Positions 5,316 through 24,388 are shown, numbered from the stretch's first letter. The stretch: 64,000 nt of DNA from Acholeplasma hippikon (GCF_900660755.1 NZ_LR215050.1:1364001-1428000); one strand, 5' to 3'. Numbers and translations are program-made. Notes: generated by a model not told the origin, from the sequence alone.

Positions 5316-7386
5316 ATGAAGAGTTATAAGGGAAATAACCCTTTTTTTCCGCGCGATAGTTTTTGTCTGTGCAATTCTGTCGCTTTTTGTGCTTGCTGCA
5401 TGTGATTTTGCCTCTGGTGCGAAGTCTATTGTAGAAGTCAAAGTGGATGAAAGTGGAAACTTAATAACGGTTTATTCAGACGGGTCTGAACAAAACCTAG
5501 GAAAAGTTAAAGGGGAGAATGGGGTAAGTCTCATTGGTGTAGAAATCACTGATGATGGAAAATTAATTGTAACCCTTTCTAATGGTCAATCAACTGATTT
5601 AGGCGTGATCATTGGGGAAAATGGTGAAGCTGTGGACTTTAATGTTTCTGAAACACACATTCAATGGAAATATAAGAATGAAGAAACATATAGAGAGTTA
5701 ATTTCATTAGATTTATTAACAGGTGCTAAAGGAGCTGACGGTAAAGAAATTGAATTACAAGTTACCGAAACGCATATCGAGTGGCGCTATGTTGGTGAGG
5801 AAACTTGGAAACAATTAATCTCATTAAGTCTATTAACAGGTGCCAAAGGAGCAGATGGTAAGGAAGTAGAATTTAACTTATCTGCAACACATATTGAGTG
5901 GCGTTATGTAGGAGAAACTACTTGGAAACAATTAGTTCCATTAACTGCACTTACTGGTGCTAAAGGTGAAGATGGTAAGGAAATTGAACTCCGTGTTACA
6001 CAAACACATATTGAATGGCGCTATGTGGGGAGTGAAGAATGGACACAATTAATTGAACTTGCTTTACTTACAGGGGCAAACGGTACGAATGGTAAAGAAG
6101 TAGAATTTAATCTTTCTGAAACACACATTCAATGGCGTTATGTAGGTGATTTATTATGGAGAGATTTAGTTTCTCTTACATTATTAACAGGTGCTAATGG
6201 TACTGATGGTAAAGAAGTCGAATTAGGTTTATCCCAAACACATATCACTTGGAGATATAAAGGTGAAGAAGAATGGAAGAACCTAGTTGAATTATCATTA
6301 ATTACTGGTGCTAAGGGTACTGATGGTAAAGAAGTAGAACTAAGAACAACAGAAACACATATTCAATGGCGTTATGTTGGATCAGATGCTTGGACTGACC
6401 TTATTGAGTTATCACTATTAACTGGTGCTGAAGGTCATAAAGGTGCTGATGGCAAATCTGCTTATGAACTATATAAAGAAAAATATCCTGATTATACAAA
6501 ATCAGAATCTGAGTGGATTGATGATTTAGTAAATGGCAGATTAGCTACTAAACCTAAATATATGGTTACATTTGATTCAAATGGTGGAAGTGAAGTTCCA
6601 GTTCAATATGTATTTGAATTTGAAAAACTCACTCAACCTCAAACACCAACAAGACCAGGTTACTTATTTGGTGGATGGTACTTAGGAGAAGAAAGATGGG
6701 TATTTAACATCTACTTAGTAAGTGAACCAGTTACATTAACTGCTAAATGGATTGAAAACCCACTTGAAATTGAAGTAAATGACTTAACAGTTACTTATAA
6801 TGGTGAAGTTCAAACTTATGAATTAACAAACCTTCCAGAAGGAGTGATTGCTACATATACGAATAACGCACATAAAAATGCTGGTGTTTATGAAGTAACC
6901 ATTTCATTTGAAGATACTACTGGAACATATTTAGTTCCAGAAGTTGTAACGGTAACATTTACTATAGAAAAAGCATTACTTACTAATTTATCATTTGTAA
7001 GTAAAGATATTCGCTTTGACGGTCAATTGCATACACTAACAATTACAGGTAATTTACCAAGTGATGTTATGGTTCAATATACACCAAACACAAGAACATT
7101 TGCTGGTAGATTAGAAGTGATTGCAGTATTCTTTTATGATAGTAACAATTATTACTCTATTCCCACTATGAAAGCTGAACTTGCAATTTATTATGAAGTA
7201 TCATTTGTTGAATATAATAAGACAACTGCACAAAAATATTATGGAGATATTATTTCTCAAGTTACTGTAACAAGACCAGGTTATACATTTGTCGGCTGGT
7301 CAACCGTACAAAATAATCGCAATAACTTAATTAAGTATCCTTATAAACTACAAGGACACACAACGTTATATGCGATTTATCAGTAA
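5316..7386 (+). CDS. Repeat-rich surface lipoprotein with a frame break in its signal peptide
   Basis: The main frame holds the h-region and lipobox ILSLFVLAAC but contains no ATG, GTG or TTG ahead of the GTG at 5389, which lies after the h-region. The only good start, ATG 5316 with AAGGAG at 5299-5304, is in another frame. Removing one T from the T7 run 5342-5348 gives a proper lipoprotein signal with Cys29; a 2-base change in the GAAGAG stretch would also restore it. After the Cys come seven 39-residue repeats (GA-x-GxDGKE...THIxWRYxG), a GADGKSAYELY-type linker, two Listeria/Bacteroides (InlB B-type) repeats ending GYLFGGWY and GYTFVGWS, and MBG-like beta domains between them. It is probably a surface adhesin or scaffold. 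It is 18 bases from the giant secreted enzyme and likely co-transcribed. Confidence 0.75.
5602..6420 (+). repeat. Seven tandem 117-base in-frame repeats
   Basis: Units begin at 5602, 5719, 5836, 5953, 6070, 6187 and 6304; the first is the most divergent and a partial eighth starts at 6421. Each encodes 39 residues with a collagen-like GAKGADGKE start and a THIEWRYVG core followed by W-x-x-L(I/V)-x-L. No insertion or deletion separates units, so copy number could change by recombination without breaking the frame. Confidence 0.9.
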
Positions 7387-7404: not shown

Positions 7405-10400
7405 ATGAAAATTAAAAATATACTACCTAAATCATTTATTTTAGTATTAGCAGCATTCATGCTAATTTTTACACTTACTACAAATAAAGCTTATGGGTCA
7501 ACATATATGCCACCAGATGGTAGATTCTTGATTGCTTATAATGAATCAAGATTAGCTCCAGGTATTAATGAAGCAGAAGTTATAACAAATGGTGCTGATG
7601 GTAAATCTCAAGTAACAGGTTATGCACTTGAGGTTGATATTAATTTACCAACAGCAGGTATTATTGCAACCTATAAAGACCATAATGCTAGTGTTTGGGG
7701 TATGCAAACTGTTAGACAACAAGCAGCAGCTGCTGAAAGAAAAACAGGTTTAAACATTGTTGCAGGGGTCAATGCTGACTTCTATAACATGTCAACAGGC
7801 CAACCAATTGGTGCTTTAGTAATGAATGGTGTCCAATACAATGGTGCATCATATGAACCATTCTTTGCGATTTTAAAAGATGGGTCAGCATATATTGGTG
7901 AAAACCATGAATATGCTGCAATGAAAGACGACATTAAAGAAGCGGTTGGTGGAAGTATTGTCATGGTTAAAAATGGCGTTTTAAATGTGCCAAGTGATTT
8001 ATACTATGATCAATTAAACCCAAGAACTGCTATTGGTATTAAAGCTGATGGTAAAGTTATTCTTTATACAGCTGATGGTAGAAATTACCCACAATCAGTA
8101 GGTTTAAGTTTAGGTGATTTAGCTCAAATGATGAAATCATTAGGAGCTGTTACAGCTTTAAACTTAGATGGTGGTGGATCAACAACTTATGTATCAAAAC
8201 GTGAAGGTACTGGTGAATTAACATTAAGAAACGTTCCATCTGATGGTGTAGAAAGAACAGTTTCATCATCATTACTAGTATATTCAACTGCAATGTATGA
8301 TGGTAAGTTTAATCACGCATCAATTTCACCAACTTACGGATTATATACACCATACACTGAATTAGATTTTAATGCGTTAGGTGTTGACTCAGCAGGTGGA
8401 CCTGCAAATCTTCCAACAGATTTAGAGTGGAGAGTTGATGATCCAACATTTGGTACAATTAATGAATTTGGACATTTTGTGTCTTCAGGTAAAGAAGGAA
8501 CATTTACAGTTTCTCTTTATAGAAATGGTGTAAATGTAGGTTCTGCAACTAATGAAATTAGAATACCTGATGAAGTAAGATTTAAAAATCCTGAAATGAG
8601 TTTAGGATTTGAAAAGGTAAGTGATTTAGGTTTACAAGCATTCCATCAAGGTAGACCTATTACAATTAATGATAATGACTTTGATTTTGAATATGATCAA
8701 GCAATGGGAACATTTAATGGTAGATGGTTCACATCAAGTGATTCAGCGTCATTAACTGGTACAATTGTTGCGCATTATAAATATGCACCAGTATCTGGGG
8801 AGTTAATCTTAACGGTTGGTCAATTACCAGTTGTTATTTATGACTTTGAAGATCCGGAAACAGTGATGAGTACTTGGAATGTTTCTACAGCTTTAAGAAA
8901 TGAAAAAGGTTCAATTGAAGTTGTAGATTACAGTAGTGGAGAGCCAGTTAGATTTGGTGATAAATCACTTAAGTTAAACTTTGACTTTACTGAAGGTCTT
9001 TTAGGTACAACTTTAGGAGTTTATGCAGGGGTTGCAACTTCTGTTGATATTCCAGGTATGCCAACACACATTGGTATGTGGGTATATGCTACACCTGAAG
9101 CACAAGGCTTCTGGTTACGTATGAGAGTTTATGACGTTACCGGTCAAATTCAACAAGTAGACTTCTCAAAAGAAGGTCTAGGTATTGACTGGTTAGGTTG
9201 GAAGTATGTTGAAGGTTCTTTAGAAAACTATAGTGGTCCATTTAGAACATTAGACTCACAAATGATTCGTTTAATGATGTTACGTTCTGGTCAACCAAAC
9301 TCAATGGGTCAAATGGTTGCAGGTACAATTTACATTGATGATATCCGTGTGGTATATGGTGCTAATACGGATGACTTAGTGCAACCTATTGTTGAATCAG
9401 TTCGTTTAAATGGTGAAGAAGTAGATGGTCAAACATTTACTACTAACACATTTACTTTAGAATCATATTTCACTGATGATATGACAGATAAATATGCTAC
9501 TGGTATGGACTATGATAAGATTAACGTTTTAATCGATGGTGTTAACTACCGTGGCAATGAACATTTCTATGCATTAGATGCTGGTGGAAACAGAGTATTC
9601 TTAAATGATATTGTTTTACCAGATGGTGAACACGAAATTAAATTAATTATTCGTGATAACTTTGGTAACGAAACGGAAGTAACAAGATACTTTAATGTTG
9701 ATACGAAAACAGCAAATAAAGTAAGATTAGTTCCAAGAACAGAAAAACCAATTTTAGGTCAACAGTTCATCGTTGATGTAACTGCTGATATGGTTGATAG
9801 TGTTGATGGTTTAAATTTAGTATTAAACTCAAATACACAACCAGCAGATGTTATCTTTAATGAAAACTTTGAAGGTACATATACTTATAATTCAATTCTT
9901 AAAACAATTACAATTCAAGGTGAACGTATAAACGATACAAGTGAATCACTAAATAAAGTGATTGCATCAGTTATTTATAACGTTCCAGCAAATGCAAACC
10001 AAAATACACAAATGGGTTATAGTGTTAAATCAGGTGAAATCACTTATCGTGATCAAGATCCTAACCCAAATTATTTATCAACATTCTCTATAAGACCGTA
10101 TCTATCAAATGTGGTGGCGGGCTTAAACTTAAGTACTGGTATTGTTATCCATCAAGTGGAAGGACATTATTTAGTAACTGATAGAGAAGGTAATCCGGTT
10201 GATCAAGCGGAAGTATTCTTAGTAACTCCAAGTGGAGATATTAGTTTAGGTTTAACTGATACAGATGGTTTACTATCTGATGAAGTGATTCCATCAACTA
10301 TTGGTCAAACACAAATTTATGCAGTTAAAGGAAATGAAATTTCATTTAAAGTAAATGTTCATACTGTTTTACCATTTGGTGAATCAGCAAGTCCATTTAA

Positions 10401-13400
10401 TATTAAAGTGAATGCTGCAGTTGATGGTTCAACAGCTAAAAATATTAGCTGGTTAACTAATCCAACATTAGGTACAGGTAACTCAATACTTCAAATGGCA
10501 CTTAAATCTGATTATAATTCAAGAGGTGTAGCAGTATTTAAGAATTATGAAGGTAAGAATGTTATTGAACAATTTACTGGTGCAGCAGATGTTAACCAAC
10601 GCTATGCCGTTAGAATTAACTATGCTGAAGCCTTAGATTTACAAGCAGGTAAAACTTATGTTTACCGTGTTGGTGATGGCCAAAATTGGTCAGATACAAG
10701 AGAAATTTCAACATCAATTAACAATTCAGAAACAAACTTCTTCATTTTAGGAGACGTTCAAACACATAACTACCAAGAATTAGCTAACTCATTAGCATCA
10801 ATTAATCATTCTAAACGTTATGACTTTGGTATTTCAACAGGGGATTTAGTTGATGAATTAAGTAAGTGGGATCCATTCTATCAAACTTCAAGAGTACTTG
10901 CAGAATCATGGATTGGTAATGTAGACATGATTAGTGCTTTAGGTAACCATGAATACATGGGTGATGGTGATGGAAGAATTAGTGGTGCTTACTATAATTT
11001 ACCTGGTCATGAAAATGGTCCAGTTACGCACTATTCAGTAAGATATGGTAGTGTTTATATTGCAGTTATTAACTTTACACAAGATAGAGCAGGTTTAATC
11101 AATTCATTAGAATGGATTGTTGAAGATGCTAATAATTCAGATGCTGCATGGAAAATCCTTGTTGCTCACCAACCAACATATTACACAAATATTATTGGTG
11201 GTAATGGACTATTCTATGAAGTTGTTCCACAATATGCAACTTTAGCTGGTATTGATTTTGTCTTCTCTGGACATGATCACTCATATGCAAGAACAAAACC
11301 AATGATTAATAATGTAGTTAATCAAGATGGTACTGTTTATGTAATTTCAGGTTCAATTGGTGAAAAATCATATTCAGCTTGGAATACACCTGAATTTAAT
11401 TTCGAAATTGTATTAGATAATTATGATGCAGTTTACATGACTGTAACAGCAACTGATACTACATTTACATATAACTTATATGAAACAACAGGTGTTTTAG
11501 TTGATTCATATACAAAGACTAAAAATGTAGATAAGACTGGTGAAAGGTTCTATATTGAAGGCGATAGATTAATCTCTTCAGTAACTGGATATTCTATTCC
11601 TTTAGCAAGCTATACTGGATTTGCCTATGTTGAAGCAACTGGTGCTAAGAAGTACTTCATTGCTGGTAATGCAGTAAAGGGTTGGTTTAGTGTTTCAAAT
11701 AAAACATATTATGCGTATAACGATGGTACTATTGCAACTGAAAATATTACAATTGAAAATGCTGATATGTATTTTGATGAAGATGGTGTATTCAAAGGTG
11801 GTGTAACAGGGTTTATAGAGTATCAAGGAAAAATTAGGTATTATGTAAATGGGGAGTACTTAACTTCTTGGCAAACTATTGAAGGGTATGTTTATTATTT
11901 TTCAACAGCTGATGGAACAATGCGATTTGGAGAAACAATCATTCACGGAGAAACAGAATTATTTGATAGCCTAGGGAGATTACAAAAGGGAAGATGGGTA
12001 TATAGCAATTCTGGTATTCAGTACTACTTTGGATTACAAGTGAAAGGTTGGTATCAATTAAATGATGATTGGTATTATTTTTCTACAGCAAATGGAGTGA
12101 TGAGAACTGGACAAACAAAAATCAGTTCAAAAGATTATGTATTTGATTCGACAGGTAAATTAGTTATTGGAGCCTTCGTGAATGAACTTAGTGGTACTCG
12201 ATACTATTGGGGGCCAAATTATGTAACTGGTTGGCAAAAAATAGATGGTTTACTTTATTATTTTGATACATTGGGTTATATGGTAAAAGGGAATCAAACA
12301 ATTAATGGTATTAGTTTAGAATTTAATAGTGATGGGGTATTTGTTGAAAAAATAGATTATCCTAATGGTTTCATTGAAAGTTATTTGGGTATAAGATATT
12401 ACATAAATAATATTTATCAAACTGGATGGATTGATTATCAAGGACACAAATATTTTGCTGATAATCAAGGGTATTTAGTGATAAATAGATCTTTAAATAT
12501 TGAAGGTATTGTATATGCATTTGATAAAGAAGGAAAACTTATTAATTCAAACAACATAACTCGACTCTATACTGTATATTTTGTTGATTACAATGGTAAT
12601 CCGTTATCAATCCAGCAAATCTACCCAGGTGAAAGCGCATTTGCTCCTATTCCTCAAACAAGACTCGGATATACTTTTACTGGTTGGGATAAATCATTTG
12701 ATGAAGTTATGTCTAATATGTATGTTTATGCAACATACGAAAAGACTTTAGTAAATGTAAACTTTGATATTGAAAATGTTACCATAGAAGGTCAAGAAAG
12801 TTTCCTATGGAATGAAAAAACTGCATATGATTTCATCGTACCTCTTGGGTATGAACTATTCTATTATGATGTGATTGGAGCTAATTATAAATTTAATGGT
12901 AATCGTATAGAAATCATTAATCCTTCTGAAGAAATTACAATTTATCTTTGGGCTAAACCTATATCTAATTTGCCAATACTAATGATTGATACCAATAATA
13001 TTCCTATTTTGGATAAAGAAAATTATATTTCAGGAAGCGTACATTTAACAAATGCTGATGAATATGAAGATGTTTATGCCTCAATGGGTATTCGTGGACG
13101 AGGTAATTCAACTTGGAGTATGCCTAAAAAACCATATAGAATTAAATTTGACAAGAGGGTATCACTATTAGGAATGAAGTCAGCAAAAAATTATGTATTA
13201 TTGGCGGATTATGCAGATAAATCATTATTAAGGAATTATTTAGCACATGAAATGGCTTCATATTTAAATACAAGTTATAAATTGCAGTATGAACATGTGG
13301 TTGTATATTTAAATGGAGAGTATCAAGGAATATATTTATTAACAGAACAAGTTCAAATTGACGAAAATCGTTTATGGATAGATGATAAAGATCAAGCATT

Positions 13401-14130
13401 TGATGCAGGGTTTTTAATTGAACTAGATTCTAGAGACAGGGCTATGGAAGAGGGAGAAGAAAATTTTGAATATATAATTGTTACTGGTAAATACTATGTA
13501 ATTAAGTCACCAGATATGAGAGACTTTTCAGATTTAGTTAGAGAAGCAAAAATTAATTATATTAAATCTTATATTAGAGATATGGAACAATCATTTATAG
13601 ATGGAACATATGAAAACTATATTGACATAGATTCTGCAATTGATTTTTGGATTATTCAAGAACTTTTCAAGAATAATGATGCAGCTTTCTCGAGTTTTTA
13701 TTTTCATAAAGAGAAAAATGGAAAAATAAAGCTTGGACCATTATGGGATTTTGATATAGCTTTAGGTAATGTAAATTATAATGGAAATGACAACCCAGAG
13801 GGACTATGGGTAGAAACACAAAATGTGTGGCTTAAATCATTATTGTTATATAATATAGAATTTAGAGTGAAATACTATTCAAGATTTTTAGAAATTATTG
13901 AATTCTATGTTCCAATGCTATTAAATAACATGAATAATGAAGCTAATAGAATTAGAGAAGACGCAATTCGAAACTTTACTAAATGGAATATATTGGATAA
14001 ATATGTATGGCCAAATCCTGACCCAGTTGTCTCAGCAAATACATATTCAAAACAAGTTAGATATATTACAGATTTTATAATTATCCGCACAGAATGGTTA
14101 AGAGAAACTTTAAAAAATAAACTTAATTAA
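7405..14130 (+). CDS. Giant secreted fusion: NAGPA-type phosphodiester glycosidase, metallophosphoesterase, wall-binding repeats, CotH-type kinase
   Basis: The 2241 residues start after GGAGG (7389-7393). Residues 1-31 are a signal peptide. About 50-295 is a NAGPA/phosphodiester glycosidase domain with signature LNLDGGGSTT (252-261). About 300-480 looks Ig-like, 480-650 is a carbohydrate-binding-like jelly roll, and 770-890 is cohesin-like. About 990-1370 is a purple-acid-phosphatase-like unit: a fibronectin-like start, then GDV (D1117), GDLVD (D1147), GNHE (1180-1183), VAHQ (H1255) and GHDHSY (1289-1294). Residues 1415-1720 are choline/glucan-type cell-wall-binding repeats (YYF, GWxxxxGxxYY), 1722-1780 an InlB-like repeat, and 1855-2235 a CotH kinase domain with KKPYRIKFDK, LLGMKSAKNYVLLADYADKS and GPLWDFD (2111-2117). 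The N-terminal domains suggest cleavage of phosphodiester and phosphomonoester groups on surface glycans, the C-terminal one protein or glycan phosphorylation. Substrates are unknown. No membrane anchor is visible. The last third is more AT-rich. Confidence 0.88.
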   Translation: MKIKNILPKSFILVLAAFMLIFTLTTNKAYGSTYMPPDGRFLIAYNESRLAPGINEAEVITNGADGKSQVTGYALEVDINLPTAGIIATYKDHNASVWGMQTVRQQAAAAERKTGLNIVAGVNADFYNMSTGQPIGALVMNGVQYNGASYEPFFAILKDGSAYIGENHEYAAMKDDIKEAVGGSIVMVKNGVLNVPSDLYYDQLNPRTAIGIKADGKVILYTADGRNYPQSVGLSLGDLAQMMKSLGAVTALNLDGGGSTTYVSKREGTGELTLRNVPSDGVERTVSSSLLVYSTAMYDGKFNHASISPTYGLYTPYTELDFNALGVDSAGGPANLPTDLEWRVDDPTFGTINEFGHFVSSGKEGTFTVSLYRNGVNVGSATNEIRIPDEVRFKNPEMSLGFEKVSDLGLQAFHQGRPITINDNDFDFEYDQAMGTFNGRWFTSSDSASLTGTIVAHYKYAPVSGELILTVGQLPVVIYDFEDPETVMSTWNVSTALRNEKGSIEVVDYSSGEPVRFGDKSLKLNFDFTEGLLGTTLGVYAGVATSVDIPGMPTHIGMWVYATPEAQGFWLRMRVYDVTGQIQQVDFSKEGLGIDWLGWKYVEGSLENYSGPFRTLDSQMIRLMMLRSGQPNSMGQMVAGTIYIDDIRVVYGANTDDLVQPIVESVRLNGEEVDGQTFTTNTFTLESYFTDDMTDKYATGMDYDKINVLIDGVNYRGNEHFYALDAGGNRVFLNDIVLPDGEHEIKLIIRDNFGNETEVTRYFNVDTKTANKVRLVPRTEKPILGQQFIVDVTADMVDSVDGLNLVLNSNTQPADVIFNENFEGTYTYNSILKTITIQGERINDTSESLNKVIASVIYNVPANANQNTQMGYSVKSGEITYRDQDPNPNYLSTFSIRPYLSNVVAGLNLSTGIVIHQVEGHYLVTDREGNPVDQAEVFLVTPSGDISLGLTDTDGLLSDEVIPSTIGQTQIYAVKGNEISFKVNVHTVLPFGESASPFNIKVNAAVDGSTAKNISWLTNPTLGTGNSILQMALKSDYNSRGVAVFKNYEGKNVIEQFTGAADVNQRYAVRINYAEALDLQAGKTYVYRVGDGQNWSDTREISTSINNSETNFFILGDVQTHNYQELANSLASINHSKRYDFGISTGDLVDELSKWDPFYQTSRVLAESWIGNVDMISALGNHEYMGDGDGRISGAYYNLPGHENGPVTHYSVRYGSVYIAVINFTQDRAGLINSLEWIVEDANNSDAAWKILVAHQPTYYTNIIGGNGLFYEVVPQYATLAGIDFVFSGHDHSYARTKPMINNVVNQDGTVYVISGSIGEKSYSAWNTPEFNFEIVLDNYDAVYMTVTATDTTFTYNLYETTGVLVDSYTKTKNVDKTGERFYIEGDRLISSVTGYSIPLASYTGFAYVEATGAKKYFIAGNAVKGWFSVSNKTYYAYNDGTIATENITIENADMYFDEDGVFKGGVTGFIEYQGKIRYYVNGEYLTSWQTIEGYVYYFSTADGTMRFGETIIHGETELFDSLGRLQKGRWVYSNSGIQYYFGLQVKGWYQLNDDWYYFSTANGVMRTGQTKISSKDYVFDSTGKLVIGAFVNELSGTRYYWGPNYVTGWQKIDGLLYYFDTLGYMVKGNQTINGISLEFNSDGVFVEKIDYPNGFIESYLGIRYYINNIYQTGWIDYQGHKYFADNQGYLVINRSLNIEGIVYAFDKEGKLINSNNITRLYTVYFVDYNGNPLSIQQIYPGESAFAPIPQTRLGYTFTGWDKSFDEVMSNMYVYATYEKTLVNVNFDIENVTIEGQESFLWNEKTAYDFIVPLGYELFYYDVIGANYKFNGNRIEIINPSEEITIYLWAKPISNLPILMIDTNNIPILDKENYISGSVHLTNADEYEDVYASMGIRGRGNSTWSMPKKPYRIKFDKRVSLLGMKSAKNYVLLADYADKSLLRNYLAHEMASYLNTSYKLQYEHVVVYLNGEYQGIYLLTEQVQIDENRLWIDDKDQAFDAGFLIELDSRDRAMEEGEENFEYIIVTGKYYVIKSPDMRDFSDLVREAKINYIKSYIRDMEQSFIDGTYENYIDIDSAIDFWIIQELFKNNDAAFSSFYFHKEKNGKIKLGPLWDFDIALGNVNYNGNDNPEGLWVETQNVWLKSLLLYNIEFRVKYYSRFLEIIEFYVPMLLNNMNNEANRIREDAIRNFTKWNILDKYVWPNPDPVVSANTYSKQVRYITDFIIIRTEWLRETLKNKLN

Positions 14131-14207
14131 TTACTATAAAGTACTTAATATTTATTAATTCTATAGTTTTCTCTAAATTAATAACTGTTATATTACAGAC
14201 TATTTTT

Positions 14208-14250
14208 AAAAATGATTGTTCCTTAATGGAATGATCATTTTTATTTTGTT
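14208..14250 (+). terminator. Terminator-like hairpin after the giant gene
   Basis: Arms 14208-14222 and 14228-14242 pair at 13 of 15 positions around a 5-base loop, followed by a T-rich stretch (TTATTTTGTTTG). Confidence 0.65.
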
Positions 14251-14660: not shown

Positions 14661-15281
14661 ATGAGTAGATTAGATTTTTTTAAAACAACACCAATTCATA
14701 AAGAATATATTATATTAGACTATCTAAGTAAAAATGCCAAAGTAACCCAACGTGACATTTCAAGTGTCGCGTCTATTTCATTGGCAATGGTTAATCAATA
14801 CCTAGATACTTATGAAAAAGAAGGATATTTATCTAAGGTTTACTTAAATAATAAAAATATGGAATACCATATTACAGAAAAAGGAATACAGCGAAAAAAA
14901 TATTTAAACATTAAATATTTAGAATCTGCTAGAGATGTATATCAAGATGCAAAAGCAAATATTAAAGTATTCTTAAATGACATTATGAGTAAGGGATTTA
15001 GAAAAATACTTTTATATGGCGCAGGAGATGTAGCAGATATTATTTTATTAGTGATTAATAGCGAACCAGAAATTAATTTAGAAGTTTGCGGGATTATTGA
15101 TGATAATCCAGCAAAACATGGATCTAAAATATTTAGCACTAAAATTATTGGCATTAATGATTTAAAAGTTCATGAACATGATGCAGTTTTAATTGCTAGT
15201 TATGCATATTATGAAAAGATGTATGACAACTTAATTAAAAATAATTATGATAAAAACAAAATTTTAAAATACTTTGGATGA
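14661..15281 (+). CDS. Winged-helix regulator fused to a Rossmann-like domain
   Basis: The 206-residue cytoplasmic protein has a MarR-type winged helix in residues 1-75 (NAKVTQRDISSVASISLAM is the recognition-helix region). Its second half (from about 105) has a nucleotide-binding-type start, ILLYGAGDVAD, then VCGIIDDNP and AVLIASYAYY. That half resembles the N-terminal Rossmann unit of PglD/CapD-like proteins that read or modify nucleotide sugars. It is the first gene of the polysaccharide operon, 9 bases before ugd, with AAAGGGGAAAT as ribosome binding site. Inference: it senses a nucleotide or nucleotide-sugar and controls the cluster. A DNA target was not identified. Confidence 0.7.
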   Translation: MSRLDFFKTTPIHKEYIILDYLSKNAKVTQRDISSVASISLAMVNQYLDTYEKEGYLSKVYLNNKNMEYHITEKGIQRKKYLNIKYLESARDVYQDAKANIKVFLNDIMSKGFRKILLYGAGDVADIILLVINSEPEINLEVCGIIDDNPAKHGSKIFSTKIIGINDLKVHEHDAVLIASYAYYEKMYDNLIKNNYDKNKILKYFG

Positions 15282-15290
15282 GGTGAATTA

Positions 15291-16457
15291 ATGAAAATTA
15301 CAATTGTTGGAACTGGATATGTTGGGCTTTCAAATGCAGTATTATTAAGTCAATTTAATGAGGTAACTGCTTTTGATATTAATGAGTCAAAAATTAATTT
15401 GATTAATCAAAAAATATCTCCTATTGTCGATAAAGAATTAGAAGAATATATAACGCATAAAGAACTAAAATTAAAGGCATCTATATACGAAGATGTCGCA
15501 TTTGATAATCCAAAATTTATTATAATTGCAACACCAACTAATTATGATTCTCAACTTAACTATTTTGATACGTCAAGTGTAGATCAAACAATCGAAAAAA
15601 TAAACAAAAGAGAGCTTAAATCAACTGTAATTATTAAATCTACAGTACCTGTTGGGTATACCGAAGAAATAAGCAAGAAATATCCCAATTTAGAAATTAT
15701 TTTTTCTCCTGAATTTTTAAGAGAGGGTAAAGCATTGTATGATAATCTTTATCCATCAAGAATAATTATTGGAAGTAATTCTGAAAATGCAAAAGCGTTT
15801 GCTAATTTGCTGCTTCAAGGATCGCTAAAAGAAAATACACCAGTATTATTTACGGGTTCAACAGAAGCTGAAGCAATTAAATTATTCTCTAATACATATT
15901 TAGCGTTAAGAGTCGCTTTCTTTAATGAATTAGATACTTATGCTGAGATAAGAGGATTAAATACAAAGGAAATTATAGAAGGGGTTGGATTAGATCCTAG
16001 AATTGGTAGTCATTATAATAATCCATCATTTGGATATGGAGGCTATTGCTTACCAAAAGATACTAAACAATTACTTGCTAATTATCAAGATATACCACAA
16101 AATATTATGACTGCAATTGTAGATGCAAATAGAACAAGAAAAGACCATATTGCAGAGATGATTCTAAGCCGCAAACCCAATAAAGTTGGTATTTACAGAT
16201 TGGTTATGAAAAATGATTCTGATAATTTTAGATCCTCATCTATCCAAGGAATTATGAAGAGAATTAAAGCTAAAGGAATTGAAGTTATTGTGTTTGAACC
16301 GGTTTTAACTGAAGACACTTTTTATAATTCTAAAGTAGAAAGAGATTTTGAAAAGTTTATTGCAGAAGCAGATGTAATTGTATCTAATAGATTTTATAAA
16401 GAATTGGAAAAAGTTAAAGATAAGGTTTATACACGAGACATATTTAATAGAGACTAG
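15291..16457 (+). CDS. ugd: UDP-glucose 6-dehydrogenase
   Basis: It oxidises UDP-glucose to UDP-glucuronate with two NAD. The 388 residues match the enterobacterial-type Ugd in length and layout: NAD motif GTGYVGL (7-13), [23 protein letters not shown], the central helix with [17 protein letters not shown], and [14 protein letters not shown] carrying the catalytic Cys253. It ends VYTRDIF like the enterobacterial enzyme, so this subfamily is clear. GAGGTGA overlapping the previous stop serves as ribosome binding site. The next gene is a UDP-glucuronate 4-epimerase, so the pathway goes on to UDP-galacturonate. Confidence 0.95.
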
Positions 16458-16465
16458 GTGAGAGA

Positions 16466-17479
16466 ATGAATAAAAGTATTTTAATTACGGGAGCAGCAGG
16501 ATTTATAGGATACCATCTTGCCAAAAAATTATTAGAAAAAGGGCTAAATATAATTGGTGTTGATAACTTAAATGATTATTATGATGTGAACTTAAAAAAA
16601 ACGAGATTAAGTGAATTACTTCAGTTTGAAAACTTTAGTTTTAAAAAGTTTGATATCTCAGATTTAGCGTCGATGGAATCACTTTTCATTCAAAATAGTA
16701 TTGATATTGTGATTAATCTTGCAGCTCAAGCAGGAGTTAGATATTCAATTGAAAACCCAAGTGTTTACATTCAAAGTAATATCATTGGGTTTTATAATAT
16801 TTTAGAATTATGTAGAAAGTATCCTGTTAGACACTTGTTATATGCATCAAGTAGTTCAGTTTATGGCGCAAACAAGAAAATTCCATTTGAGGAAACTGAT
16901 TTTGTTGATAATCCTGTGTCTTTGTATGCTGCTACTAAAAAAAGCAATGAATTAATGGCTCATACATATAGTCATCTTTATAAAATTCCTAGTACAGGAT
17001 TAAGATTCTTTACTGTATATGGACCACTTGGAAGACCAGATATGGCTTATTTTAGTTTTACAAATAAATTTTTCAATAATGAACCAATTCAAATTTTTAA
17101 TAATGGTAATTTTGATAATGATTTATATAGAGACTTTACATATGTCGATGACATAGTGGAAGGAATCGAAAGATTGATTGATATTCCCCCAGTAGATCAT
17201 AATCCTATGTATAGAGTACTTAATATAGGTAACAATAATCCTGAGAAATTAATGGTATTTATTAATGCGTTAGAAAATGCATTATCCCATTCTCTAGGTA
17301 AAGAAGTTGAACTAATAAAAGAATTTTGTCCATTAAAACCAGGCGATGTACATAAAACGTATGCCTCAACCGAAAAGTTAGAAAAATTAATAGGATTTAA
17401 ACCTAAAACACCTATTCAAGAAGGATTAGTTAAATTTACAGATTGGTATGTAAAGTACTATAGAAAGGTTAATTTATGA
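16466..17479 (+). CDS. UDP-glucuronate 4-epimerase (extended SDR)
   Basis: The 337-residue extended short-chain dehydrogenase has GAAGFIG (NAD motif), VDNLNDYYDVNLKK, LAAQAGVRYS, ASSSSVYG and YAATKKSNE (catalytic Tyr-x3-Lys), then RFFTVYGPLGRPDMA. The LNDYYDVNLKK and AAQAGVRYSIENP segments are typical of the CapI/WbnF UDP-glucuronate 4-epimerase group. It follows ugd after 8 bases, so UDP-galacturonate is the expected product. UDP-glucose 4-epimerase is the alternative, but the ugd context and motifs argue against it. Its stop overlaps the next start (ATGA). Confidence 0.88.
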   Translation: MNKSILITGAAGFIGYHLAKKLLEKGLNIIGVDNLNDYYDVNLKKTRLSELLQFENFSFKKFDISDLASMESLFIQNSIDIVINLAAQAGVRYSIENPSVYIQSNIIGFYNILELCRKYPVRHLLYASSSSVYGANKKIPFEETDFVDNPVSLYAATKKSNELMAHTYSHLYKIPSTGLRFFTVYGPLGRPDMAYFSFTNKFFNNEPIQIFNNGNFDNDLYRDFTYVDDIVEGIERLIDIPPVDHNPMYRVLNIGNNNPEKLMVFINALENALSHSLGKEVELIKEFCPLKPGDVHKTYASTEKLEKLIGFKPKTPIQEGLVKFTDWYVKYYRKVNL

Positions 17480-18090
17480 TTTATAAAATTTTCAAAATAA
17501 TAATGGACTTTTTATTATCTTTAATTGGAATTATTATTTTATCACCAATATTTTTAGTTTGTATTATATGGATAAAATTAGATTCTAAAGGACCGGTATT
17601 ATTCAAGCAAAAGCGAGTTGGGAAAGACAAAAAACTTTTCTATATTTGGAAATTTAGGACAATGAGAATTGATACACCTTCTGATACACCCACACATCTT
17701 TTATCTAATCCAGATCAATGGATCACTAAATCTGGAAAATTTTTAAGAAAAACAAGTTTAGATGAATTACCACAAATATTTAATATTTTACAGGGTAAAA
17801 TGTCGATAATTGGTCCTAGACCAGCCTTATGGAATCAATATGATCTTATTGATGAGAGAGATAAATATGGAGCAAACGATATTCTGCCTGGATTAACTGG
17901 ATATGCACAAATAAAAGGCCGTGATGAACTGATTATTGCAGATAAAGCAAAATTAGATGGATACTACAAGCAGAATATGAATTTGTGGTTAGATATCAAG
18001 ATTTTTTTTGGAACGATTATTAGTGTATTGAAATCAGATGGGGTTGTAGAAGGGAAACAAAATAGAGATGAAAAGGATATTGAAAAGTGA
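17476..18090 (+). CDS. Initiating sugar-phosphate transferase (PglC/WcaJ-type monotopic phosphoglycosyltransferase)
   Basis: It would load the first sugar-1-phosphate onto undecaprenyl phosphate at the inner face of the membrane. The 204-residue protein is the small, single-domain type: one N-terminal membrane segment (about 8-30), then KRVGKDKKLF, YIWKFRTMR, TSLDELPQ (catalytic Asp-Glu pair), MSIIGPRPA and GLTGYAQIKGRDEL. These are the diagnostic motifs of the bacterial sugar transferase family. It overlaps both neighbours by ATGA junctions, so translation is coupled. The first sugar cannot be read from sequence; the neighbouring SDR suggests a modified hexose. Confidence 0.93.
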   Translation: MIYKIFKIIMDFLLSLIGIIILSPIFLVCIIWIKLDSKGPVLFKQKRVGKDKKLFYIWKFRTMRIDTPSDTPTHLLSNPDQWITKSGKFLRKTSLDELPQIFNILQGKMSIIGPRPALWNQYDLIDERDKYGANDILPGLTGYAQIKGRDELIIADKAKLDGYYKQNMNLWLDIKIFFGTIISVLKSDGVVEGKQNRDEKDIEK

Positions 18091-18953
18091 AAAGGATATT
18101 AATAACAGGCGTCAATAGTTTTATTGGTACAAGTATAGAGAATGAATTAATTAAATATCCTATGAATTATACTGTGGATTCAATTGACATGAAAAATAAT
18201 GATTGGAAAAAATATGATTTTAGTTTGTATGACTATGTATTTCATGTTGCTGGTATTGCTCATGTATCAAATGACAAAAAATTAGATGATTTATATTACA
18301 AAGTGAATAGAGATTTAGCTATTGAGACTGCATTATATGCGAAAAATTCAGGTGTCAAAAACTTTATTTTTATGAGCAGTATGATTATTTATGGTGAAGA
18401 TAACAAGTATTTTAATAAAAAACCAATTGATAGAAATAGTTATAATCCTACAAGTGCCTATGGAAAAAGTAAACTTGCAGCGGATTTAGAAATTCAAAAG
18501 CTTCAATCAGACTCATTTAATGTATCTATAATTAGAACTCCAGTTGTATATGGAAAAGGGTCAAAAGGAAATTTTACCAAACTACAAAAAATGGCAAAGT
18601 ATTTTTTATTTGTACCGACAATAAAAAATCAAAAAAGCATGATATATATTGATAATTTAGTTAAAGCTATAAAAAAAATAATTGATAATGGCTTATCTGG
18701 TGTTTTTTATCCACAAAATTCGTATTATGTAAGTACGGTTGATATTATTGTTGAAACTAGAAAAATAATGAAGAAAAAGACGTTTAGGCTTCGCATTTTA
18801 AATATAGTTATTTGGTTCCTATCTTTATTTAGTAAGAAAATCACTAAAATTTTCGGAAACAAATATTATCAAGTTTTCGATGATGATAATTTAATCTTTG
18901 ACGGCTATAGTTTTGAAGAAACAGTTGCCTTAACCTATGAGGGAGAAAAATGA
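18087..18953 (+). CDS. NAD-dependent epimerase/dehydratase (atypical SDR) of the polysaccharide cluster
   Basis: The 288-residue protein has ILITGVNSFIGT (NAD motif), HVAGIAHVS, FMSSMIIYGE and YGKSKLAAD (Tyr-x3-Lys), then RTPVVYGKGSKGNF. The pattern matches capsule-cluster SDRs annotated as UDP-hexose 4-epimerases or 4-ketoreductases. Residues about 230-250 form a hydrophobic segment (ILNIVIWFLSLFS), unusual for a soluble SDR and hinting at membrane contact. It follows the initiating transferase with an overlap. A Gnu-like lipid-linked sugar epimerase would fit, but this is inference. Substrate is uncertain. Confidence 0.75.
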   Translation: MKRILITGVNSFIGTSIENELIKYPMNYTVDSIDMKNNDWKKYDFSLYDYVFHVAGIAHVSNDKKLDDLYYKVNRDLAIETALYAKNSGVKNFIFMSSMIIYGEDNKYFNKKPIDRNSYNPTSAYGKSKLAADLEIQKLQSDSFNVSIIRTPVVYGKGSKGNFTKLQKMAKYFLFVPTIKNQKSMIYIDNLVKAIKKIIDNGLSGVFYPQNSYYVSTVDIIVETRKIMKKKTFRLRILNIVIWFLSLFSKKITKIFGNKYYQVFDDDNLIFDGYSFEETVALTYEGEK

Positions 18954-20032
18954 AGAAAGTCGCATTTTTTGTAAATCATGAATTAGTAATTTATAATTTT
19001 AGAAAAGAAATAGTAAAAAAATTTCTCGATGAAAACTATGATGTATATATTATTTCGCCAAAAGGGAAAAAAATAGACTTACTAATAGAACTTGGAGCAA
19101 AGCATATAGATATAGATATAGATAGACACGGCATTAATCCTTTAAAAGATATATATATAATTAAAAAAATAAAAAAAATACTAAGAAATTTACAGCCAGA
19201 TTATCTTTTTACCTTTACCATTAAACCTAATATTTATGGTTCATATGCTGCAAAAAAATTAAAAATTCCACATTCGGCAAACATTACTGGATTAGGCACT
19301 GCTGTAGAAAAGCCGGGCTTACTTCAAAAAATCACGTTAATAATGTATAAAGTATCTTTTTCTAACATAAACACCGTGTTTTTTCAAAACGAAGATAATT
19401 TGAATTTTTTTCGAAAGTACAAAATTGCTTTAAATAAGCACATTTTACTTCCTGGTTCTGGCGTAAATCTTGAAGAATTTTCTCTTGAAGAATATCCTAA
19501 TAATGATGTTATTAAATTTGCTTTTATTTCTAGAATAATGAAAGAAAAAGGAATAGATCAATTTTTAGATGTTGCGTCTAGAATGAAAAATGAGAAGAAA
19601 GCAGAATTTCATGTATATGGTTTTTGTGAAGATTCATATGAAAATAAGCTTAAAATACTTACTGAAGAAGGGATTATCAATTATCACGGTATGACAGATA
19701 ATGTGAAAGAGGTATTAAAAAAAATAGATTGTTTAATTCATCCAACTTATTATCCAGAAGGAATATCAAATATTTTATTGGAATCCTTGGCAATAGGAAG
19801 ACCAATTATTACAACAAATAGGCCTGGATGTAAAGAAGTTGTTGATGATGGAATAAATGGATATATGATTGAGCCAGAAAGTTCTAATATGCTTTTTGAT
19901 AGTGTTCAAAAATTTCTTTCTCTTGATAAAAAAGAAAGAAGCTTAATGGGGATAAATGGTCGTAAAAAAGTTGAGGCGTATTTTGATAGAAAAATAGTGG
20001 TTGAAAAGTACTTAGAGGAGGTGAAAAAATAA
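18950..20032 (+). CDS. Glycosyltransferase family 4 (PglA-like)
   Basis: The 360-residue GT-B enzyme starts KKVAFFVNHELVIYNFRKE and has a C-terminal GT4 signature: SRIMKEKGIDQFL (donor-domain start), HPTYYPEGISNILLESLAIG (EX7E motif with the two Glu) and RPIITTNRPGCKEVV. The HPTYYPEGISN wording is typical of the PglA / capsular GT4 group that adds the second sugar to a lipid-linked sugar. It is cytoplasmic or peripheral, with no transmembrane helix. It overlaps the SDR by an ATGA junction. Donor and acceptor are unknown; a role soon after the initiating transferase fits its position. Confidence 0.87.
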   Translation: MKKVAFFVNHELVIYNFRKEIVKKFLDENYDVYIISPKGKKIDLLIELGAKHIDIDIDRHGINPLKDIYIIKKIKKILRNLQPDYLFTFTIKPNIYGSYAAKKLKIPHSANITGLGTAVEKPGLLQKITLIMYKVSFSNINTVFFQNEDNLNFFRKYKIALNKHILLPGSGVNLEEFSLEEYPNNDVIKFAFISRIMKEKGIDQFLDVASRMKNEKKAEFHVYGFCEDSYENKLKILTEEGIINYHGMTDNVKEVLKKIDCLIHPTYYPEGISNILLESLAIGRPIITTNRPGCKEVVDDGINGYMIEPESSNMLFDSVQKFLSLDKKERSLMGINGRKKVEAYFDRKIVVEKYLEEVKK

Positions 20033-20036
20033 CTTT

Positions 20037-21107
20037 ATGAAAATACTTTTTATTATTAATGCATTGACAATTGGTGGCGCTGAAAGATTAGTTACCAATC
20101 TTGCGTTACATATGAAGAATGAGAAACATGATGTTGAATTATTACTTTTATCAAATCGAAATTCTTCTGAATTAATCAATAAAATAGAAGAAAACAATAT
20201 AAAAGTTTCGATTTCTAAATATACTAAAGTTCGCGATATTAGAAATTATTTATTTATCAAAAAACAAATAAAAAATAATCAATATGATGTAATTCATGTT
20301 CATCTTTTTCCAGCTTTATATTATGTATCCTTATTGAAAAGAAGAATATTAAAAAATGCTAAATTAATTTATACTGAACATAGCACTGACAACAAAAGAA
20401 GAAGTAAAAAAATATTAAGAAAAATTGAAATTAATATATATAAAAAATATGATGGGGTTATTGCAATTAGTAAAGCAGTAAAAAAGACCCTAAATGATTG
20501 GTTAGATCATAAAGTAAATATTGAAATAATCGAGAATGGAATACCAACAAGTGATTTTAGTGTAAAAAAAGAATTTAGAAAAAATAATAAAATAAGAGTT
20601 GGTATGGTTTCTAGATTTGCTAAGTCAAAAGATCATTTAACACTTGTAAGAGCAATGAAATATTTGCCAAATTATTATGAACTTTATTTTGCTGGTGAAG
20701 GTGAAACCTTTGAAAATGTAAAAAAAGAGGTTTTTCGCTTGGGATTACAGAAAAAAATACAATTTAAAGGCAATGTTGTGAATGTGAATGGTTTCTTAAA
20801 TGAGTGTGATATTTATGTTCAATCATCAAATTGGGAAGGGTTTGGATTATCTGTTGTAGAAGCTATGGCAGTCGGTTTACCTATAATTGCAAGTAATGTT
20901 CCTGGACTCTCTGAAACAGTATTAGATAGCGGATTACTATTTGAAAAATCAAATGTATTTAATTTGGTAGATAATATAAGAATTGCCGAATGTAATTTAG
21001 AATTCTATTCAAATAAAGCTTATGAAAGATCAAAGTTTTATGATATCTCAAGAGTAGGTAATGAACATTTAAAGTACTATAAAAATATTAAGGATAAAAA
21101 AATATAA
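20037..21107 (+). CDS. Glycosyltransferase family 4
   Basis: The 356-residue GT-B enzyme opens with KILFIINALTIGGAERLVTN, the classic GGAE loop of GT4, and has VIHVHLFPA, VGMVSRFAKSKDH, and SNWEGFGLSVVEAMAVGLP, the EX7E region. It would transfer a sugar from an activated donor to the growing lipid-linked oligosaccharide. The ribosome binding site GGAGGTGA (20017-20024) lies inside the end of the preceding gene. The codon content is rich in AAA/ATA with little G+C, like the rest of the cluster. Specificity cannot be deduced. Confidence 0.87.
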   Translation: MKILFIINALTIGGAERLVTNLALHMKNEKHDVELLLLSNRNSSELINKIEENNIKVSISKYTKVRDIRNYLFIKKQIKNNQYDVIHVHLFPALYYVSLLKRRILKNAKLIYTEHSTDNKRRSKKILRKIEINIYKKYDGVIAISKAVKKTLNDWLDHKVNIEIIENGIPTSDFSVKKEFRKNNKIRVGMVSRFAKSKDHLTLVRAMKYLPNYYELYFAGEGETFENVKKEVFRLGLQKKIQFKGNVVNVNGFLNECDIYVQSSNWEGFGLSVVEAMAVGLPIIASNVPGLSETVLDSGLLFEKSNVFNLVDNIRIAECNLEFYSNKAYERSKFYDISRVGNEHLKYYKNIKDKKI

Positions 21108-21178
21108 AATTGAAGAATTAAACTTAATAATTTACTTTTTGAGTTTAATTATATTAATCAATTGGAATAAGGAAGATA

Positions 21179-22051
21179 ATGAAAAAACCTCTTTTAATTA
21201 GTTATATAATTGTAAACTACAACACTTATACATATACTAGTGAATGTGTGAACTCCATCATAAACAATAAATCAAATGAATATAATTACGAAATAATTAT
21301 TGTAGATAATGGTAGTACAGATAACTCCTACGAACTTTTAAGACAAGAATTCAGATTAAATTGTTCAGTGCAATTTATCAAATCAAATCAAAATATAGGA
21401 TTTGGAAGAGCAAACAATCTTGCGGTTGAAAATTCAAATGGTGAAATCCTTATATTTACAAATAGTGATACTAATTTGTTAAATACAGATGTTAGACTTG
21501 TAGTTGAGAAATTTAGAAGAATCAAAAATGTTGGGCAATTGGGCGTAAAGATATTAAATACTGATCTTTCTATACAAACAATTGGTTTTAAGAAGCCTTC
21601 ACTAATAAATGATTTCAAATTGAATTTTTTATTTTGGAATTTCAATTTTGTTAAGAAAATACGTTTTAAGAGTAGGAAGAATAAGGGATTGATAAAAGTT
21701 GACTGGGTAAGTGGTGCATTCTTTATAATGTATAAGCATGTTTTTATCAAAATAGGCGGATTTGATCCCAATATCTTTATGTATTCAGAAGATTTGGATT
21801 TATCTACTAGATTGATAAAACAAGGTTATAATAATTATGTGTTTGATGAAGTGACGGTGGTCCATCATCATGGAAAATCATCAACATTTTCTTTGAAGAA
21901 AAAAATAAAAGAGAAAAAAAACTATCTATACGTATTAAAGAAAAATAGAATTTCTTTTTTTCCAAACATGATTTTCTTAATGCACATAATTCATATCTAC
22001 ATACTTTATATTGTAAAGAAAATGGTCAATCTATTTAGAGGAGATAAATAA
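21179..22051 (+). CDS. Glycosyltransferase family 2, rhamnosyltransferase-like
   Basis: The 290-residue GT-A enzyme has SYIIVNYNTYTYT, IIIVDNGSTDNS, IGFGRANNLAVENS, NSDT (DxD-like) and WVSGAFFIMYKHVFIKIGGFD, then MYSEDLDLSTRL and HHHGKS. This set is typical of the WbbL-like rhamnosyltransferase group, which fits the dTDP-rhamnose genes downstream. The C-terminus (about 260-285) is hydrophobic and may sit in the membrane. A 71-base gap with a weak A/T hairpin (arms 21117-21124 and 21142-21149) separates it from the previous gene. Assignment as rhamnosyltransferase is inference from family and context. Confidence 0.85.
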   Translation: MKKPLLISYIIVNYNTYTYTSECVNSIINNKSNEYNYEIIIVDNGSTDNSYELLRQEFRLNCSVQFIKSNQNIGFGRANNLAVENSNGEILIFTNSDTNLLNTDVRLVVEKFRRIKNVGQLGVKILNTDLSIQTIGFKKPSLINDFKLNFLFWNFNFVKKIRFKSRKNKGLIKVDWVSGAFFIMYKHVFIKIGGFDPNIFMYSEDLDLSTRLIKQGYNNYVFDEVTVVHHHGKSSTFSLKKKIKEKKNYLYVLKKNRISFFPNMIFLMHIIHIYILYIVKKMVNLFRGDK

Positions 22052-22052
22052 A

Positions 22053-23468
22053 ATGATTAAAATAAAAAACGTTATATACTTGTTGGTAAATCTATTGATT
22101 TCATTACTTGTGTTTTTTGCTACAAAATCATTTAATTATTCATTGATTTATTTTCTTATTTCATCATACCTCTTATGGATATACGTAAAGTCTAACGATA
22201 TTCTTACTTTCTTAATAAATATACTTATACTATTTTTACCTGCGTATCCTACTCTACGTATACTTTTAATTATGTATAATCAATCGCTTCTATCATCAAT
22301 AATTAATCTAGTTAGAGATATATTAATTGTTATGATTTTTGTATATGCAGTCTATTCATTATTATATTCTAAGAAAAGGAGTAAAGTATTTAATAGTAAG
22401 CAATTCACCTCTATTATTCTTTTTTTTCTAATTTTTGGTTATGCATTTATTTTGTCGGTTTTTAGTAATTATGGTTCATTGGGTTTTAATGGCATACATA
22501 TAACTGTAGTGCCATTTCTTCTATATATTGCATTAGCAATATATCCTAAAAAAATAAATTTAAAGTCTATTTTGTTAAATTTCCTTTTAGTTGGTGGATT
22601 TGTAATGCTAATTGGATTCTATTTCTATTTTTCAAAACCGCTAATTTATGGTCATCTCTTAGTTTATTATAGGGCATTAACAGATGATCCTGTGTATGCA
22701 GCTCAATATTCAAGAATGGTAAGTATTATTTTGTCTCCGAATATTTTTGCAACATTTGCAGGAGTTTTTGTTATTGTATTAATTTATTTATTAAGCATTA
22801 CTAAAAGAAAAGTAGTAGTAATTTTTTCATTAATTTTTGCAATATTAGGAATTGTTGCATTGATTCTTTCAATGTCAAGGGGGGCATGGGTTGCTGCCAC
22901 CATAAGCATTATTTATATAATAATAAGGCAATTCAAATTTAAGTCTATAAAAACCTTACTAATTCCTATAATTATTATTGCAGGAATTCTATTGATAAAT
23001 GATACAAATTATTTTCAATTAATTGAAAAAAGATTTGATTCTTTACTAGATTTATCAAACTCTTCATCATATGGTAGAATTCAAATTTGGATTGACGCAT
23101 TGAGTAGAGGGAATAGAATCATTTATGGGTATGGGTTAGGAGTTGGTGGGATTAATCTAATTCATTTTCCCGAATTATCGCAATTATTGGGAATTGAGGT
23201 TTTAGATGGATACTATATTAAAGTATTAGTTGAGGTGGGCATAATTGGCTTTATAATTTGGGCATTACATATGATGTTAATATGGCCAAGAGTTTATAAA
23301 GATTATGATAAGAATTTAATAGTTTTATCTCAGACAGTTTTGATATTTTATCTAATTCAATCAATTGGAAGCAACGTATTAGATTTTATTGTGGTTGCTC
23401 CACTGCTTTGGATAATCCTAGGGATTACAGCTAGAAAAGAAAAAGCGTTTGATGTATTAATAATATAA
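22053..23468 (+). CDS. Wzy-like polysaccharide polymerase (O-antigen ligase/polymerase family)
   Basis: The 471-residue integral membrane protein has about 11-12 hydrophobic segments and one larger polar loop between about 200 and 230. The segment [11 protein letters not shown] matches the conserved Wzy_C/O-antigen ligase signature. It would join lipid-linked repeat units outside the membrane. It starts one base after the previous stop and lies between the glycosyltransferases and rmlA, with a flippase gene (26793) in the same operon. This gives a Wzx/Wzy pathway instead of a synthase pathway. A ligase role is possible but there is no lipid A or wall here to receive the chain. Confidence 0.82.
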
Positions 23469-23503
23469 AATCTAAAAATTTCAATCTAAAGGAGATTATG
23501 TGT

Positions 23504-24388
23504 ATGAAAGGAATTATTTTAGCTGGAGGAAGTGGGACAAGGCTATATCCATTAACTCAAGTAACTTCAAAACAATTATTACCGGTGTACGATAAGCCAA
23601 TGATTTATTATCCACTATCAATATTAATGCTATCTGGAATTAAAGAGATTTTAATAATTTCAACACCAAATGATCTACCAAATTTTGAGAGATTACTAGG
23701 AGATGGATCGAAATTAGGTATCAATCTAAAATATAAGATACAACCTTCACCGGATGGGCTTGCGCAAGCATTCATATTAGGAGAGGGGTTCATTGGGGAG
23801 GATTCTGTGTGTATGATTTTAGGCGATAATATATTTTATGGAAATGGATTAAAGAGTGGTCTTAGAAAAGCAGTTGAAAATGCTGAAAATGGTCGTGCGA
23901 CAATTTTTGGATATCATGTAAATGACCCTGAGCGTTTTGGAGTAGTTGAGTTTGATAGTAATGGAAAAGCAATTTCTATTGAAGAAAAACCACAATATCC
24001 CAAATCAAATTATGCAGTAACTGGCCTATATTTCTATGATAATAGAGTCATAGAATATGCAAAAAAAGTTAAACCTTCAAAGCGTGGAGAGTTAGAAATT
24101 ACTGATTTAAATAGAATATTTTTAGAGAACGAAACACTAGATGTTATTACATTTGGTAGAGGATTAACGTGGTTAGATACAGGAAGACATGAGTCATTAG
24201 CAGAGGCTACTGCCTTTGTTAAGATGATTGAAGAACACCAAGGGCTAAAAATTTCATGTCCAGAGGAGATAGCATTTAAAAATGGCTGGATATCAAGAGA
24301 ACAGTTATATGAACAAGCTAAATTAATGGAGAAAAATCAATACGGACAACATTTGATGAAAATATTAGAAGGAAAGATCTTATACTGA
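23504..24388 (+). CDS. rmlA: Glucose-1-phosphate thymidylyltransferase
   Basis: It makes dTDP-glucose from glucose-1-phosphate and dTTP. The family motif [11 protein letters not shown] lies at the N-terminus, followed by [51 protein letters not shown] and [11 protein letters not shown] chose ATG 23504 because GGAG (23491-23494) is nine bases before it; the ATG at 23498 leaves only three bases. The length of 294 residues is normal. The stop shares an A with the rmlC start (TGATG). It is first of the rmlACBD set. Confidence 0.96.

Follow-up and report, generated by a model that had tools for sequence, protein, structure and literature searches.

A 2241-residue exported protein of Acholeplasma hippikon carries NAGPA, metallophosphoesterase and CotH kinase domains in a recurrent architecture

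The subject of this analysis is a single gene in a 64,000-nucleotide stretch of the Acholeplasma hippikon genome (GCF_900660755.1, NZ_LR215050.1:1364001-1428000), which we call the window. The gene occupies positions 7405 to 14130 and its product carries, on one chain, a phosphodiester glycosidase of the NAGPA type, a calcineurin-like metallophosphoesterase (MPE) and a CotH-type kinase. It is a real, well-formed protein of a recurrent and apparently undescribed architecture. NAGPA-MPE alone is already known and widespread (the ShfP/YvnB radiation); the new part is its repeated joining to CotH. NAGPA-MPE, or NAGPA, has been joined to CotH at least twice independently, once for the window protein and separately in gut Clostridia. 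The protein is built as follows.

7405..14130, + strand: whole open reading frame (ORF), ATG to TAA, 2241-aa exported multidomain protein with Pfam domains
7405..7500, + strand: signal-peptide-like N-terminal segment (MKIKNILPKSFILVLAAFMLIFTLTTNKAYGS), read directly from the sequence
7525..8283, + strand: NAGPA phosphodiester glycosidase domain, residues 41-293 (Pfam stretch 117-293, 4e-39)
8305..10407, + strand: beta-rich linker, residues 301-1001, with immunoglobulin (Ig)-like, carbohydrate-binding-module (CBM)-like (about 481-655), Ig-like and cohesin/Big-like segments
10408..10713, + strand: Pur_ac_phosph_N (FN3-like) domain, residues 1002-1103 (Pfam 2e-8; AlphaFold2 (AF2) model)
10738..11286, + strand: calcineurin-like metallophosphoesterase with all five metal motifs, residues 1112-1294 (Metallophos, Pfam 2e-11)
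11638..12549, + strand: choline/glucan-binding-type repeats, residues ~1412-1715 (Choline_bind_3 2e-17, above cut-off)
12568..12774, + strand: one weak Flg_new/InlB-B-like repeat, copy at residues 1722-1764 (E 0.007, below cut-off)
13090..14100, + strand: CotH kinase domain, residues 1896-2232 (Pfam 8e-42)

The ORF contains no internal stops, has a GGAGG ribosome-binding site just 5' of its start and shows an even G+C content at third codon positions (GC3), of 14-18%, along its whole length. Given its signal-peptide-like N-terminus, the chain is predicted to be exported. A previous, sequence-only reading had proposed that three phosphate-acting domains sit in one exported chain, and the Pfam search agreed with it, with NAGPA, Metallophos, Pur_ac_phosph_N and CotH all found above their curated cut-offs. 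Every motif position in that reading was also correct (LNLDGGGSTT at 252-261, D1117, D1147, GNHE at 1180-1183, H1255, GHDH at 1289-1292 and GPLWDFD at 2111-2117), and the KKPYRIKF motif begins at residue 1908. Regarding the folds, those of the MPE and CotH domains were confirmed by AF2 models, and NAGPA matched solved proteins by sequence.

The NAGPA (PF09992) profile scored 135 bits against a cut-off of 25, and the domain matched the solved DUF2233 protein 3ohg (1e-24) and the solved NAGPA 6pku (6e-14). Residues N123, D125, D224, D255-GGGS, E283 and R284 are kept at 96-100% in 70 relatives. With its conserved residues intact, including the NLDGGGS motif shared with both the uncovering enzyme (6pku) and bacterial DUF2233 (3ohg), the domain would be expected to hydrolyse sugar-1-phosphodiesters. 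Those two are stand-alone enzymes, whereas the NAGPA domain of the window is part of a multidomain chain, and its substrate may differ from the GlcNAc-1-P-mannose of the animal enzyme. The linker that follows gave weak Big_13 and Big_1 matches and is collinear with the relatives L013 and L019; the names of its segments without a profile match are putative.

In the case of the phosphoesterase, the AF2 model of residues 985-1378 (mean confidence score, pLDDT, of 89) matched plant purple acid phosphatases and phytase, the best PDB entry being the purple acid phytase 6gja (5.5e-23), and the metal-motif residues are conserved in relatives. In strict purple acid phosphatases, a Tyr of motif II (GDxxY) serves as a metal ligand. 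Motif II of the window protein is GDLVD, with Asp1150 at the position of the Tyr ligand, and this Asp is also conserved in relatives. Hence, a reading of the domain as a purple acid phosphatase in the strict sense is not supported, and ‘calcineurin-like’ is the safer name. It does combine FN3 (Pur_ac_phosph_N) with a five-motif calcineurin-like domain in an exported multidomain protein, as ShfP-like proteins do.

The CotH (PF08757) profile gave 144.2 bits against a cut-off of 23.8, with a match spanning the full profile. The AF2 model of residues 1861-2241 (pLDDT 91) superposed on B. cereus CotH 5jd9 with a Z score of 29.4 and a root-mean-square deviation of 3.2 over 319 residues, a score that far exceeds those of PI4K, HipA and Fam20. 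Residues K1908, E2006, D2092, D2115 and D2117 are kept at 95-100% in 40 CotHs, and D2092 presumably corresponds to D228 of B. subtilis CotH, partly through the alignment to 5jd9. The catalytic positions of the window CotH are thus fully intact, and the domain is a putative active kinase. It shares the kinase-like fold and these positions with the spore-coat CotHs (B. subtilis; B. cereus 5jd9/5jda), at 17-18% identity in the structural alignment. Unlike them, it is no spore protein and is built into the 2241-aa exported chain. Its nearest relatives among CotH sequences, at up to 51-52% identity, are exported products of single genes in the same taxonomic order (L003-L012), stand-alone frames of ~485-545 aa without NAGPA, MPE or repeats, whereas the window CotH is fused to all of these. 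In relatives, CotH is a separate gene for a lipoprotein-like exported protein, located beside tpiA in two species of the genus. Across 160 genomes of the order, CotH frames are nearly always ~450-750 aa long and the window ORF is the sole one above 1215 aa.

The N-terminal half of the protein, in turn, is widespread among Bacillota, with 77 named loci at up to 42% identity in Sedimentibacter, Terrisporobacter, Clostridia metagenome-assembled genomes (MAGs), Bacillaceae and lactobacilli, which end in nothing more, in dockerin, LPXTG, SLH or fn3 tails, or in choline-type repeats. By sequence, this half appears to be the NAGPA-bearing part of the ShfP (YvnB) radiation (PMC11488536), for which NAGPA fusions were reported by its authors (Updegrove et al. 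2024, PMC11488536). In ShfP/YvnB, a characterised member, the extracellular release of glycerol depends on the phosphoesterase residues (PMC11488536). The radiation and the window protein have in common export, Ig-like regions, a Pur_ac_phosph_N-type FN3 before the calcineurin-like domain, NAGPA fusions, and C-terminal or other surface-binding modules (PMC11488536). B. subtilis ShfP has a lamin-tail domain and lacks NAGPA, C-terminal binding repeats and a kinase, whereas the window protein has NAGPA, repeats and CotH, a domain that the ShfP paper (PMC11488536) does not mention.

A search for NAGPA and CotH in one chain found six further proteins. Using Pfam, we identified NAGPA-FN3/MPE-CotH chains in L217 (2783 aa), L218 (2537 aa) and L220 (2683 aa), from three genomes found by way of a Clostridiales MAG; in-house profiles added a fourth, L109 (2742 aa), of the window's class. 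L174 (by Pfam) and L202 (by in-house profile) have NAGPA and CotH without MPE. The order is therefore not unique, although the earlier reading knew of no described protein with it: L109, L217, L218 and L220 carry the three enzyme domains in the same succession on a single exported chain. They differ from the window protein in their CotH subfamily and fn3 linker and, for L217, L218 and L220, in the SLH or dockerin tails after CotH. For the most part, the other fused chains keep the CotH catalytic positions; in the L202 chain (L202:483-4547), CotH is a likely pseudokinase. We found no publication on the NAGPA-MPE-CotH combination, nor any paper naming both CotH and NAGPA, in a search that most subscription papers lay outside. 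Long CotH proteins also occur by themselves: the G758 genome (L219, L223, L224, L226, L229) encodes several of 1300-2500 aa and one frame above 6000 aa, all without NAGPA or MPE, and neither domain was found when looked for in the CotH frames above 1200 aa of L219, L222-L226 and L229.

To place the joining events, we relied on the trees of the domains. The CotH tree requires at least two changes: the window CotH falls within the CotH set of its own order (100/99), and one separate clade (100/98) unites the six remaining fused CotHs. A single origin of all NAGPA-CotH fusions was rejected for the CotH domain, as the approximately unbiased (AU) test excluded one clade. In the MPE tree, made of relatives only (B. 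subtilis ShfP is absent from the trees), the window MPE lies in a Clostridial set (100/98), apart from the L013 and L019 cores of its own order, so descent of the window core from these NAGPA-MPE genes receives no support. At least two joinings follow from this grouping of the window CotH with its own order, of its NAGPA-MPE half with Clostridia and of the other fused CotHs in one clade. The simplest history would be that a Clostridia-derived NAGPA-MPE-repeat protein was joined to a native CotH.

The two kinds of gene are also neighbours. Among 23 Clostridial loci picked by their NAGPA-MPE core alone, five (L116, L118, L167, L170 and L174) have CotH within the flanks. It shares the strand in every case and is the immediately adjoining frame in four of the five. 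Against these 5 observed cases, 0.29 were expected (45 CotH matches in ~63 Mb; Poisson P about 1e-5). Together with the repeated joining, this adjacency supports a functional coupling of CotH with NAGPA-MPE.

Regarding the surface on which the protein may act, the repeats gave a TIGR04035 glucan_65_rpt match of 6e-20 in four stretches, below that model's whole-protein cut-off, and the Flg_new-CotH lipoprotein of L054/L018 can be aligned to the Flg_new-like region. Glucan-binding and InlB-like repeats had both been described; the glucan/choline-type matches stood, the InlB-like ones came down to the single weak copy, and binding of the cell's own wall found no support. In the host genome (1.47 Mb, ~30% GC), we searched for a penicillin-binding protein (PBP) transpeptidase and for LicD and found neither, other phosphocholine routes falling outside this search. 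With these absences, its size and GC content, and same-family relatives that also have small genomes, the host is likely a wall-less member of Acholeplasmatales. A ‘wall-binding’ role is hence doubtful, and the repeats probably bind some other surface or a foreign glycan.

According to these results, the window protein would be two existing modules joined, the NAGPA-MPE-repeat core of the ShfP radiation and a CotH kinase, and the fact that the joining arose separately in gut Clostridia suggests that the three enzymes cooperate on some phosphorylated extracellular target. We tentatively propose, at somewhat less than even confidence, an enzyme located at the surface that uncaps a phosphoglycan outside the cell and strips its phosphate, while its CotH domain phosphorylates a partner at the same place. 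On such a phosphoglycan, NAGPA probably hydrolyses a substituent of the sugar-1-phosphodiester kind, the MPE would next remove or cleave the phosphate so exposed, CotH probably acts as a kinase on a protein or glycan retained there, and the repeats and Ig/CBM-like regions would keep the enzymes on the glycan. NAGPA uncapping followed by a phosphoesterase step on one phosphoglycan seems the most economical reading of the domains. The idea of a self-contained remodelling of external phosphate gains from the recurrent fusion and gene adjacency, and all three activities may fall on one molecule. A more specific version, with low probability, is a single-chain extracellular writer-eraser, in which CotH would phosphorylate a glycan or protein of the surface, while the NAGPA and MPE of the chain would uncap and take off that phosphate, a regulated mark evolved at least twice.

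Several points weigh against this proposal. No activity or substrate is on record for any NAGPA-CotH protein, and the source of extracellular ATP for CotH is unexplained. Not all activities are always kept, since one motif-V histidine of the MPE is changed in three of the four chains of the other fused lineage (L109, L217, L218 and L220) and the L202 CotH has lost most catalytic positions. Besides, the group submitted to the AU test was chosen after the first tree was seen, one of the 5 adjacency cases is the L174 fusion itself, and the adjacency loci come from related Clostridial MAGs that are not fully independent, which makes the P values too small though the excess is large.

One could argue that the protein instead scavenges phosphate and sugar by digesting material of other organisms, be it glycans that bear phosphate or phosphodiester linkages, nucleic acids or polymers resembling teichoic acids, with CotH as a passenger or binding module. 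We regard this as possible, if unlikely: ShfP, PhoD and enzymes related to them break down phosphoesters outside the cell (PMC11488536), related cores bear dockerin, SLH or fn3 tails, and the seemingly wall-less genome makes a foreign glycan a plausible ligand of the repeats, but a mere binding module would not explain CotH catalytic positions kept in full in the window and for the most part in other fused chains, nor the preference of CotH for being joined or adjacent. Improbable, in our view, is a chain serving as a shared scaffold, where CotH has exported proteins as its targets, just as spore CotH phosphorylates CotB and CotG, the MPE reverses this and NAGPA acts on glycans independently. 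Such a role fits with spore CotH being a protein kinase (PMC7821199), with B. cereus CotH as the nearest fold and with the exported repeat protein encoded just upstream; however, it leaves unexplained the NAGPA-CotH joining without MPE (L174, L202). Finally, an assembly join of neighbouring genes, or a neutral fusion without functional meaning, could be suspected from the unique length of the ORF among the 160 genomes and from a frame break in the gene just upstream. Both are very improbable given 6.7 kb of unbroken frame and intact catalytic residues, and an assembly join is unlikely because GC3 stays even and the same domain order recurs in independent genomes. Returning to the proposal of joint phosphate chemistry, CotH-like kinases are common in non-sporulating bacteria, NAGPA and ShfP-like phosphoesterases are widespread, and few of their targets are established. 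Repeated joining and adjacency link these genes and predict a shared extracellular phosphate chemistry, and the fused proteins offer a direct route to a CotH substrate outside spores.

Around the gene, we annotated the following features.

5389..7386, + strand: repeat protein with Flg_new repeats and lipobox, ending 18 bases before the ORF (gene reading, Pfam)
14207..14243, + strand: terminator-like hairpin 3' of the gene, dividing it from the polysaccharide locus (sequence)
14661..28220, + strand: winged-helix protein and surface-polysaccharide locus (sugar dehydrogenase, epimerases, sugar transferase, glycosyltransferases, Wzy, rhamnose genes)

The upstream repeat-protein gene is probably co-transcribed with the ORF. 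An ATG with a good ribosome-binding site (5316-5389) is out of frame with its signal peptide and lipobox; the break sits at or 5' of a T7 tract, with phase variation, decay and sequencing error as candidates. Its 117-base tandem repeats (5619-6381) encode TGAKGADGKE...HIEWRYVGEE units. Further upstream (4444-5155) lies a family-2 glycosyltransferase-like pseudogene, recognised by eye, whose reading frame is broken by an early stop and by what looks like a shift of frame.

CotH is tied to surface polysaccharide by gene position only. In L054, of the same family, a CotH gene precedes the same winged-helix protein and sugar genes, so that the start of the locus is syntenic, and in L057-L059 and L072 the CotH gene is a few genes away from Wzz/CpsD/CpsB-type genes. 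A scan of CotH neighbours showed no link to a polyphosphate (VTC) operon. The syntenic L054 CotH was discarded as a simple orthologue, as the CotH tree places L018 in another subclade despite the common gene order. Elsewhere in the window, positions 38044-41958 encode a 1304-aa protein with a DUF4886 domain.

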